DNA of 64,000 bases from Paracyclopina nana (taxonomy: Eukaryota; Arthropoda; Copepoda; Cyclopoida; Cyclopettidae). A model generated the notes under the pieces. The model worked only from the letters and a program-made list of their open reading frames with translations, searched no databases and was not told where the DNA came from. Shown here piece after piece: positions 44,001-46,398 of this stretch. Location of the stretch: positions 10,354,001-10,418,000 of the forward strand of contig JAGUCH010000001.1 of NCBI GenBank assembly GCA_019096065.1, written 5' to 3'. Made by a program: the position numbers and the translations under genes. Every line of letters begins with the position of its first letter. Position 1 is the stretch's first letter.

Positions 44001-46398
44001 TGTCCCCTGTCGTGCGCGTCGCCGTTGAGCCCAAGAACGCCGCCGATCTGCCCAAGCTCGTCGAAGGTACTTCAATTTCTTCAATTCATAGCTTTTTTCT
44101 TTGACATGATGATATTCCTTCATTTATGGTTAGATATTTGGAGCGTTGCTATGAAGCCTGTTAACTAGGGCGAACTGATTTTTTTAACTCGCTATGCTGA
44201 GGTTAAGCTTTTCCAAGGCGGCTTCTGATTCCTCAATTTTTATTCACAGGTTTGAAGAGGTTGGCCAAGTCTGACCCTATGGTTCAGTGCATGATTGAAG
44301 AGTCTGGAGAGCACATCATCGCTGGAGCCGGAGAGCTCCACTTGGAGATTTGCCTCAAGGATTTGGAGGAAGATCATGCTCAGATCCCCATCAAGAAGTC
44401 CGACCCTGTTGTGTCCTACAGGGAGACCGTCTCTGAAGAGTCCAACCAGATGTGTCTGAGCAAGTCCCCCAACAAGCACAACAGGCTTTTCATGAGGGCC
44501 GTTCCCATGCCCGATGGCCTCGCTGAAGATATTGACAAGGTAAAATTAGACTCACTTTATTTGAGCAGACAATTTCCGTGATGAAAACTTTGTTTCCAAA
44601 CCATTCGCGGTTTCCACCCGAGGAATTAATTCCAATGACGGCCTTGGATGTCTGAAAGGCTTATTAACCAAATATCTCTTGTTCCTGAGAAGCCTTGGTA
44701 CAAATTCTGCTTTTGCTCTTAGGGTGAGGTAACCTCCAAGCAGGACTTCAAGCTCCGAGGTCGCTACCTGGCCGACAAGTATGAGTACGACATCACCGAA
44801 GCCAGGAAGATCTGGTGCTTCGGCCCTGACACCACTGGACCCAACATCCTTGTTGACTGCACCAAGGGAGTTCAGTACCTCAATGAAATCAAGGATTCCG
44901 TCGTGGCTGGATTCCAATGGGCCTCTAAAGAGGTAAAGCCTGCTTGCTATGAAATAACATATTATTTGTTCGCTACAACTTTTTCCCCCTTTGGCGTTGA
45001 TGTCATAATTGTGTTGTTTTGTACTAACCTTAACGTAACTTACCCCATTGCTGTTTTAGGGCGTTCTTGCTGACGAAAACATGCGCGGTGTTCGGTTCAA
45101 CATTTATGACGTGACCTTGCACACCGACGCCATCCACAGGGGCGGCGGTCAAATTATCCCTACCGCCCGTAGGGTTCTCTATGCTTGCGCCCTCACTGCT
45201 GCTCCCAGGCTCATGGAGCCCGTTTATCTTGTGGAGATCCAGGTTAACATTTCATTTTCTTACTTTTAAGGGTGTTCTCTGTGATGAGAACATGCGAGCA
45301 ATTCGATTCAACATTTACGATGTTGCGCTTCATACCGACGCTATTCACCGTGGAGGTGGGCAAATCATTCCTACGGCTCGTAGGGTGCTCTATGCCTGTC
45401 AAATCACCGCGGAGCCAAGGCTCATGGAGCCTGTCTACCTCTGCGAAATTCAGGTCATATGCACTTGAGTTGCCGTAACCCATGCGTTTTTAGCTAGTTT
45501 AACTTTGTTTGAAGTAGTTGAGCCCCGAGTGCGAAATCGGAATTGTAAGATTCTGCTGACATGAGTGGACATGCAATTTTACTGTAATTGTTTTACTGAT
45601 ATAACAAGTGAAGAGAAGGAATTGATTTCACTTATTTGAGCAAACGGATGAAGATAATTTTACCTTGAGCAAAGCAAAAACCAAAGCTCTTTTCACCCAA
45701 ACTTGCTCACAATAAGCTTGGTGGCTTTTTTCGAGCAGCAAACTTGCACGTCCACTTGCTGAGAGAGGTCTACACGTGCTCAGGGCCGACTTAATTCTCA
45801 AAATGATTTGGTTGTACTAATCGCATTTGATTGTTTAGTGCCCTGAAAACGCTGTCGGAGGTATTTATGGAGTGCTCAATCGCCGACGTGGACACGTCTT
45901 TGAGGAGAACCAGGTCGTCGGAACACCCATGTTCCACGTCAAGGCTTACTTGCCCGTCAACGAGTCCTTCGGTAATTATCTTATTTCACATAGATCCATT
46001 TCTCGGTTTGTAGGCCTGCTAATTGAACTAGTTTGCCGCCGACCTTGATTAAGCTACTTTCAATGATGATATTCCTTCATTTATGGTTAGATATTTGGAG
46101 CGTTGCTATGAAGCCTGTTAACTAGGGCGAACTGAATTGGGCCAAGCTCAATGCTCATTTGCATGGTTGGAACTTGGGTTGACTCTTGTTGTTCCTCGTT
46201 TCAGGTTTCACCGCCGATCTGAGGTCAAATACTGGAGGTCAAGCTTTCCCTCAGTGCGTCTTTGACCATTGGCAAATCATGCAGGGTGATCCCATGGAGG
46301 CCTCAAGCAAACCTTACCAGATTTGCCAGGACACCAAGAAGAGGAAGGGCTTGAAGGAAGGTCTGCCCGACTTGGCCAACTATTTGGACAAATTGTAA
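41028..46398 (+). CDS. eEF2: Translation elongation factor 2 (845 aa)
   Basis: The GTPase that drives ribosomal translocation. Exons: 41028-41030 (ATG only), 41531-41745, 41922-42109, 42307-42641, 43280-44066, 44250-44539, 44723-44932, then 45060-45242 or 45271-45453 as alternatives, 45839-45971 and 46205-46398. With one alternative exon the product is 845 aa, the normal animal length. Motifs: [13 protein letters not shown] start, [10 protein letters not shown] (P-loop), [21 protein letters not shown], and [16 protein letters not shown] with the diphthamide histidine at about residue 702. The protein ends NYLDKL. Seven introns contain C/D snoRNAs, and intron 4 also has nested MITEs. A second ATG|GTAAGT at 41281 could be an alternative first exon. 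Codon use is strongly biased. AATAAA at 46562. Confidence 0.98.
41398..41458 (+). ncRNA. U25: C/D-box snoRNA U25 copy a, eEF2 intron 1
   Basis: C box ATGATGA 41398-41404, D' box CTGA 41422-41425 and D box CTGA 41455-41458. The guide CCACAGACCTGTT directly before D' is complementary to the conserved 18S rRNA sequence AACAGGUCUGUG. By the D+5 rule it points to the G known as human G1490, the SNORD25 target. The D box ends 72 bases before the 3' splice site. Mature ends extend a few bases beyond the boxes. Confidence 0.82.
41786..41845 (+). ncRNA. U25: C/D-box snoRNA U25 copy b, eEF2 intron 2
   Basis: C box ATGATGA 41786-41792, the guide ACCACAGACCTGTA, a degenerate D' box CCGA at 41811, a C'-like GTGAGA and D box CTGA 41842-41845. 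TTTT before the C box pairs with AAAA after the D box as a terminal stem. The 18S target is the same as for copy a. The D box ends 76 bases before the acceptor. Confidence 0.78.
42151..42234 (+). ncRNA. U14: C/D-box snoRNA U14 copy a, eEF2 intron 3
   Basis: C box GTGATGA 42151-42157 and D box CTGA 42231-42234. Domain A is ACCATTCGCGGTTTCCACC, complementary to the 5' part of 18S rRNA. The D-box guide CCTTGGATGT is complementary to 18S ACAUCCAAGG; D+5 points to the C known as human C462. These two segments together are diagnostic of U14. The D box ends 72 bases before the 3' splice site. Confidence 0.88.
42682..43120. mobile_element. MITE-like element D, split by a MITE C insertion
   Basis: Left end AGTGATGAACGAGC (from 42682) and right end GCTCGTTCCATCACTT (to 43120) are near-perfect inverted repeats. 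Inner segments around AAGCTTCAAGC also face each other. Without the nested element the unit is about 240 bp. It lies in eEF2 intron 4, ending 9 bases before the C box of U14 copy b. Confidence 0.6.
42876..43071. mobile_element. MITE family C, copy 3, nested in element D
   Basis: The ends GATATTCCTCCGCGACTTCG and CGAAGTCGCGGAGGAATATC are perfect inverted repeats. The interior shares ACCCTATAACGT and the GGGGTCAGCTGA-type words with the copies at 23108 and 24184. It lies inside element D, so it inserted later. Confidence 0.8.
43130..43204 (+). ncRNA. U14: C/D-box snoRNA U14 copy b, eEF2 intron 4
   Basis: C box GTGATGA 43130-43136, domain A ACCATTCGCGGTTTCCACC and D box CTGA 43201-43204 preceded by CCTTGGATGT. 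AACA before the C box pairs with TGTT after the D box. The D box ends 75 bases before the acceptor, even though transposon DNA has lengthened this intron to 638 bases. Confidence 0.87.
44106..44178 (+). ncRNA. Unassigned C/D-box snoRNA copy a, eEF2 intron 5
   Basis: C box ATGATGA 44106-44112 and D box CTGA 44175-44178. It is identical over all 73 bases to 46063-46135. A segment CGTTGCTATGAA before a D'-like CTGT can pair, with one G-U, to UUCAUAGCGACG of 28S rRNA as I recall it. The D-box guide AACTAGGGCGAA has no target I recognise. The D box ends 71 bases before the 3' splice site. Confidence 0.7.
44578..44655 (+). ncRNA. U14: C/D-box snoRNA U14 copy c, eEF2 intron 6
   Basis: C box GTGATGA 44578-44584, domain A ACCATTCGCGGTTTCCACC, a degenerate D' (CCGA), and guide CCTTGGATGT before D box CTGA 44652-44655. 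The D box ends 67 bases before the acceptor. The linker between the two domains differs from copies a and b. Confidence 0.86.
45060..45453 (+). other. eEF2: Duplicated, apparently mutually exclusive eEF2 exon 8 (8A 45060-45242, 8B 45271-45453)
   Basis: Both exons are 183 bases, open in the same phase and encode the same 61-residue piece of domain IV, with 8 amino-acid differences (A/C at 4, G/A at 10, V/I at 11, T/A at 19, A/Q at 44, L/I at 45, A/E at 48, V/C at 58). Both keep [16 protein letters not shown] including the diphthamide histidine (residue 26 of the exon). The gap 45243-45270 is 28 bases with GT-AG ends, too short for normal splicing, so only one exon should be used per mRNA. Confidence 0.88.
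45454..45838 (+). other. eEF2 intron 8, possible weak snoRNA
   Basis: A CTGA at 45759-45762 ends 76 bases before the 3' splice site, the same position as the D boxes of the other introns. The best upstream C box is only the degenerate ATGAAGA at 45648, and I recognise no guide. A further snoRNA is possible but unproven. Confidence 0.2.
46063..46135 (+). ncRNA. Unassigned C/D-box snoRNA copy b, eEF2 intron 9
   Basis: Same 73 bases as 44106-44178. Here CAAT overlapping the C box can pair with ATTG after the D box as a terminal stem. The D box CTGA 46132-46135 ends 69 bases before the 3' splice site. The flanking intron sequence is unrelated to that of copy a. Confidence 0.7.

Follow-up and report, generated by a model that had tools for sequence, protein, structure and literature searches.

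In the copepod Paracyclopina nana, the only eEF2 gene found contains two neighbouring exons, 8A and 8B, which are very likely tandem duplicates used in a mutually exclusive manner, giving two eEF2 forms of 845 amino acids. According to the mechanism proposed here, exon 7 would be joined to either 8A or 8B and the chosen exon then to exon 9, so that the two forms would have the diphthamide loop in common and be distinguished by eight residues around it. In the gap of 28 nt between the exons, the 8A donor (GTTAAC) and a putative branch motif of 8B (TTAAC) overlap, and this crowding would make the two recognition events compete and prevent joint inclusion.

Gene structure and copy number

The eEF2 gene is complete in the window (the whole 64,000-nt stretch of DNA analyzed) and its exons are joined at GT/AG boundaries into an open frame of 845 amino acids with either 8A or 8B. 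Residue numbers below refer to this protein.

41028..46398, + strand: eEF2 coding region from ATG to TAA, frame open in both isoforms (from splice joins)
41028-41030, 41531-41745, 41922-42109, 42307-42641, 43280-44066, + strand: coding exons, first set
44250-44539, 44723-44932, then 8A or 8B, 45839-45971, 46205-46398, + strand: remaining coding exons
44723..44932, + strand: constant exon 7, ending in ...ASKE (from splice joins)
45060..45242, + strand: exon 8A, A-type residues A680, G686, V687, T695, A720, L721, A724, V734
45271..45453, + strand: exon 8B, B-type residues C680, A686, I687, A695, Q720, I721, E724, C734
45839..45971, + strand: constant exon 9, starting with CPENAVGG (from splice joins)

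The frame is kept at the junction partners 44932 and 45839. When frames are joined in the other possible ways, skipping of both 8A and 8B leaves 784 amino acids and removes the diphthamide loop, inclusion of both gives 906 amino acids, and retention of the 28-nt gap brings in an in-frame TAA, placing a stop at codon 746.

With exons 8 and 5 as queries, no second eEF2 gene was found in the 91.95-Mb genome of 10 contigs, and the other matches to these queries were paralogues only (32-50% identity). The encoded protein is an eEF2 sequence with the diphthamide-site loop, and over their full length the 177 C-terminal amino acids of isoform A can be aligned with eEF2 chains of solved structure. The diphthamide-synthesis family PF01866 has matches at four places in the genome.

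Divergence and constraint of the exon pair

Both exons are 183 nt long and in phase 0, preceded by AG and followed by GT. This agrees with an earlier sequence-only reading of the window, which had described two adjacent 183-base eEF2 exons in the same phase, differing at 8 of 61 residues around an unchanged DAIHRGGGQ core. From 8A to 8B the translated differences are A680C, G686A, V687I, T695A, A720Q, L721I, A724E and V734C, and DAIHRGGGQ is identical in the two. The histidine of this motif is residue 702, which in alignments corresponds to position 699 in yeast chain 1n0u (842 aa) and to position 715 in chains of 858 aa; yeast His-699 and human His-715 are the residues named in PMC6193676.

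At the nucleotide level the exons differ at 51 of 183 positions, distributed over codon positions 1, 2 and 3 as 8, 5 and 38, and they align over 191 nt at 73%. Ungapped similarity reaches just 6 nt beyond the exons on the 5' side and 2 nt on the 3' side, as expected for an old duplication. When 51 changes were placed neutrally in 20,000 simulation runs, the mean number of residue changes was 30.9 and the minimum 21, and a stop appeared in 62% of the runs; the observed pair has eight residue changes and no stop, which argues that both exons are old and constrained. Comparison of synonymous and nonsynonymous changes, which the sequence-only reading had suggested, likewise points to constraint (maximum likelihood dN 0.09, dS 2.8; by the NG86 method dN is 0.11 and dS unusable). 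As looked for in mutually exclusive exons (MXEs), 8A and 8B are adjacent, homologous and compatible in length and phase, either of them alone restores the full frame, and purifying selection on each is indicated by the simulation and the likelihood estimates.

The two exons differ in codon usage. Measured against the remainder of the gene, codon adaptation amounts to 0.670 in 8A and 0.471 in 8B, and 145 sliding windows of 61 codons over the rest of the gene span 0.575-0.881, a range that includes 8A and lies entirely above 8B. The GC3 values are 0.64 (8A), 0.51 (8B) and 0.73 (rest of the gene). A codon adaptation below that of every window fits with 8B being translated less, and we infer that most of the eEF2 carries the 8A segment and that the 8B form is minor or restricted.

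Splice signals and proposed exclusion

The sites considered for the splicing of the pair are as follows.

45022..45028, + strand: putative branch site TACTAAC of the 8A acceptor, its A 32 nt from the 3' end of the intron (motif scan)
45242..45248, + strand: putative branch site GGTTAAC of the 8B acceptor, best-scoring in the gap (motif scan)
45243..45270, + strand: gap GT...AG of 28 nt between 8A and 8B, with the 8A donor GTTAAC at 45243-45248
45815..45821, + strand: putative branch site TACTAAT of the exon 9 acceptor, 18 nt upstream of it (motif scan)

The candidate A of GGTTAAC (45247) is the fifth base of the gap, 23 nt before its end and 4 nt past the first donor base, and the TTAAC of this best in-gap motif overlaps the 8A donor CAG/GTTAAC. 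Two further motifs were scored: ATTTCAT in the gap, 16 nt upstream of 8B, falls below GGTTAAC, and CGTTTAT, located in exon 8A at a distance of 44 nt from the 8B acceptor, ranks slightly above it. It is possible that the branch site of 8B lies within exon 8A. Use of 8B through any of these candidates should leave part of 8A occupied or cut away. The donor of 8B, CAG/GTCATA, is far from the consensus.

A donor-to-branch distance below approximately 50 nt is described as the steric limit in other exon pairs (PMC5740500, PMC7969005), and since the whole gap measures 28 nt, any branch site within it falls under this limit. Short introns of chaperonin and proteasome genes of the same genome are 48-71 nt long (median 59), as measured from 17 picked pairs of adjacent matches with gaps below 100 nt and assuming no indels at the joins; longer introns, introns read through within a match and two pairs with long overlaps (a chaperonin pair on contig C4 and a diphthamide-synthesis pair on C3) were left out of this set. 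Given the donor-to-branch limit and a gap so much shorter than the shortest measured intron, joint inclusion of 8A and 8B is unlikely, though not impossible. The branch site and the steric exclusion are both inferred, and the exclusion is probably steric; the argument of the sequence-only reading that the gap blocks joint inclusion thus holds, now sharpened by the intron lengths and by the overlap of donor and branch motif. In a scan for pairing elements over 44900-45860, nine inverted pairs whose arms are 10-21 nt long were detected, of which none adjoins 8A; two intron 8 sites can pair with the beginning of exon 9, and no clear docking/selector pattern was found.

Comparison with database eEF2 proteins

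The exon-8 segment was used in three protein searches, and the best 120 matches each of 4,437, 5,695 and 5,249 gave 305 distinct listed proteins, which aligned together with both window isoforms make 307 sequences and 46,646 comparable pairs. Among the matches listed, 17 of the 46,646 pairs are 97.5% or more identical outside exon 8 and have three or more differences inside it; the window pair has no difference outside and eight inside. In general, listed pairs that reach this flank identity of 97.5% (1,214) have none (811) or one (386) exon-8 difference, 1,197 in total, and only two of them, P0009/P0133 and P0010/P0134, have five. These two pairs are 99.1-99.9% identical outside the exon. P0009 and P0133 differ there at 1 of 783 sites (residue 11) and inside at 5 of 61 (I687V, A715V, Q720A, E724A and C734V); P0010 and P0134 show the identical five exon-8 differences and seven others at 812-839. 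At 687, 720, 724 and 734 the residues of both database pairs are those of window 8B and 8A. Such a match at four sites is found in no other of the 1,214 pairs, six of which match at one site and 1,206 at none. Because the exon-8 sequences are identical in both database pairs, they may count as one event.

For listed pairs with exactly five exon-8 differences (4,800), a match to the window residues at four sites or more occurs in 95 (2%); the p value of 9.6e-6 for P0009/P0133 is not adjusted for the testing of 46,646 pairs, an adjustment after which it would lose significance. When the window pair and P0133/P0009 were compared by four-taxon likelihood, grouping by isoform was ahead by 13 log units (four sites versus one), and the AU test leaves grouping by species at p = 0.075. 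Q720 is found in five of eight sequences with C734 and in none of 99 with V734 (107 listed proteins with flank identity of at least 87%), an association for which the Fisher p is not clean, the sequences being related. Clustering of the 306 usable sequences at 98.5% flank identity gave 190 clusters, of which 29 contain two or more sequences, and V734 and C734 occur together in four: the window, P0009/P0133, P0010/P0134, and P0012 with P0057-P0059. The last was rejected as a third isoform pair, the A/B signature being absent. For the B-like near relatives P0002, P0004, P0005 and P0006, an A-type partner at 97.5% is absent among the matches listed.

The proteins P0009/P0133 are 89.4% identical to the window protein outside exon 8, i.e., approximately 11% diverged. 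The corresponding values for the four named relatives compared, none of them an insect, are 88.5% for Caligus, 83.6% for Artemia and 77 and 79% for two fish. The members of both database pairs were predicted from "jgi" contigs 2.8-3.0 kb in length, which we take for assembled transcripts. From these protein sequences, the A/B alternative is probably common to, and expressed in, relatives diverged by approximately 11%, though short of strict proof, and the exon pair would then predate the split from them. The two-isoform reading proposed earlier is supported in part: the pair belongs to a gene of which no second copy was found, each of its exons is constrained, and A-type/B-type protein pairs matching them are present in two other lineages of the database.

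Other database entries were considered and rejected as further cases. A ten-residue stretch occurs twice in 1 of the 305 listed proteins, the sturgeon P0001, the model of which joins tandem gene parts; the trout P0228 is a partial repeat; and the Artemia isoforms X1 and X2 are distinguished by an insert at another place.

Alternative explanations

It is improbable that 8B goes unused, as a relic of the duplication that is still intact but hardly ever spliced in. Its codon adaptation, lower than in any window of the remaining gene, its donor and a branch context weaker than that of 8A would all fit such a relic. However, 51 nucleotide changes have led to just eight residue changes and to no stop, the splice dinucleotides are intact, and B-type residues recur in other lineages. 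That the gap might instead be a real ultra-short intron, its removal leading to an eEF2 of 906 amino acids in which the segment is doubled, agrees with its GT...AG ends and the in-frame join; yet 28 nt compares with a minimum of 48 in the 17 measured introns (in-frame read-through introns excluded), and save for the mis-joined P0001 a doubled-segment protein is absent among the 305 listed, so that this explanation is barely conceivable.

The evidence from relatives could be read differently: each database pair might represent two separate, near-identical eEF2 genes or a chimeric assembly, with an independent origin of the window pair. The AU test result and the additional differences of P0010/P0134 near the C terminus speak for this, whereas the concentration of the P0009/P0133 differences inside the exon and the rarity (approximately 2%) of matches at four or more sites in listed pairs with five differences speak against it, and we regard it as rather unlikely. 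A more serious contender, to which we give somewhat less than an even chance, is that both exons are used and the proteins work alike, the pair being kept for regulation or without a selected difference. This is the preferred explanation minus the functional difference, and the confidence placed in the two overlaps. It is favored by the variation of the eight sites among the listed eEF2 proteins, by the unchanged core loop and by the stop that follows gap retention, an example of a regulatory product. Against it, four of the five exon-8 differences in the relative diverged by ~11% are the same A/B residues, and such recurrence argues against drift alone, which would tend to erase them.

Relation to known exon pairs

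Choice of one alternative exon in a core housekeeping gene, as proposed here for eEF2, is reportedly also seen in U2AF1 (exons 3/Ab) and PKM (exons 9/10). The U2AF1 pair is said to be a duplication like 8A/8B, though in a different gene, and the title of the U2AF1 paper reportedly speaks of a shared repression mechanism, unlike the model for 8A/8B.

A close parallel is provided by exons 4a/4b of vertebrate OGDH, described as an ancient exon duplication with two enzyme forms from one gene, in which exclusion is ascribed to branch points too near the donor of the upstream exon (PMC7969005). The dimensions differ, as in human OGDH the donor and the branch points are 25-41 nt apart and the OGDH intron is 118-131 nt in birds and mammals (PMC7969005), compared with a candidate branch A at gap base 5 and a whole gap of 28 nt in eEF2. 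Furthermore, the OGDH forms have a known biochemical difference, in Ca2+ sensitivity (PMC7969005), in contrast to the eEF2 pair. In human, 57 MXE clusters of the steric type, with a donor-to-branch distance <50 bp, are reported (PMC5740500), and with a branch site in the gap the eEF2 pair would likewise fall below approximately 50 nt. The terms "elongation factor" and "EEF2" have no occurrences in the main text of that study, nor has "elongation factor" in the main text of a survey of human duplicated exons (PMC9741552). The sequence-only reading knew of no described case, and in the open-access literature searched we found no mutually exclusive exon pair described in eEF2. Splicing of this type is well known; as far as searched, what is new is the gene concerned and how compact the pair is.

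Possible functional implications

eEF2 is usually regarded as a single, nearly invariant protein. All eight A/B sites are variable among the 305 listed eEF2 proteins, and six of them (720, 724, 686, 687, 695 and 734) are among the top 11 of the 61 positions in variability. Each exon thus encodes an ordinary eEF2 variant, and a functional difference may be small. Since the diphthamide loop is unchanged, both forms should accept the diphthamide modification. An AlphaFold2 model had a mean pLDDT of 48 and was set aside.

The diphthamide-bearing domain IV interacts with the duplex of codon and anticodon (PMC8674143), and the yeast eEF2 changes H694N, I698A and P580H near the diphthamide histidine are described as raising -1 frameshifting (PMC6193676). 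Those are laboratory changes of highly conserved tip residues (PMC6193676), whereas the natural A/B differences are at other sites. A functional difference between the A and B forms is possible. More speculatively, and with considerable doubt, the pair could be an old splicing switch of copepod eEF2 that tunes the accuracy or speed of translocation, or susceptibility to toxins directed at eEF2, by stage, tissue or condition. If true, a conserved exon switch at the segment reaching the decoding centre would amount to genetically encoded heterogeneity of the translation machinery, and 8A/8B would exemplify steric mutually exclusive splicing in very compact form, with donor and branch motif overlapping.

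Other features of the window

Several introns of the gene contain sequences resembling C/D snoRNAs. Three SNORD14-like copies (42146-42237, 43125-43208 and 44573-44659) have E values of 6e-6 to 8e-8 and score under the Rfam gathering score. Two snoU43-like sequences, at 44106-44182 (intron 5) and 46063-46139 (intron 9), are alike at 75 of 76 nt and also below the gathering score, and weak snR56-like matches lie at 41394-41460 (intron 1, E 0.72) and 41782-41870 (intron 2, E 0.25). In the same Rfam scan no snoRNA match was present in introns 7 and 8, which flank the exon pair. An apparent long hairpin in intron 4 (42917-43028), perhaps a remnant of a mobile element, matches a miRNA precursor family with E 0.018, far under the gathering score. 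A possible alternative first-exon end at 41264-41283, where TTTTTAG is followed by 20 nt ending in ATG and these by GTAAGT, could provide another start codon spliced to exon 2.

The neighbours of eEF2 are a lactonase-family (PF10282) gene at 38815-39606 on the + strand and a match to the NDUFB5 family (PF09781) at 39950-40300 on the - strand. A 300-bp direct repeat (22186-22485 and 23526-23825, 1,340 bp apart) is reported at 100% identity, and a 322-bp tandem repeat at 62235-63593 has five copies, four of which are 93-99% like the first over 71 nt.
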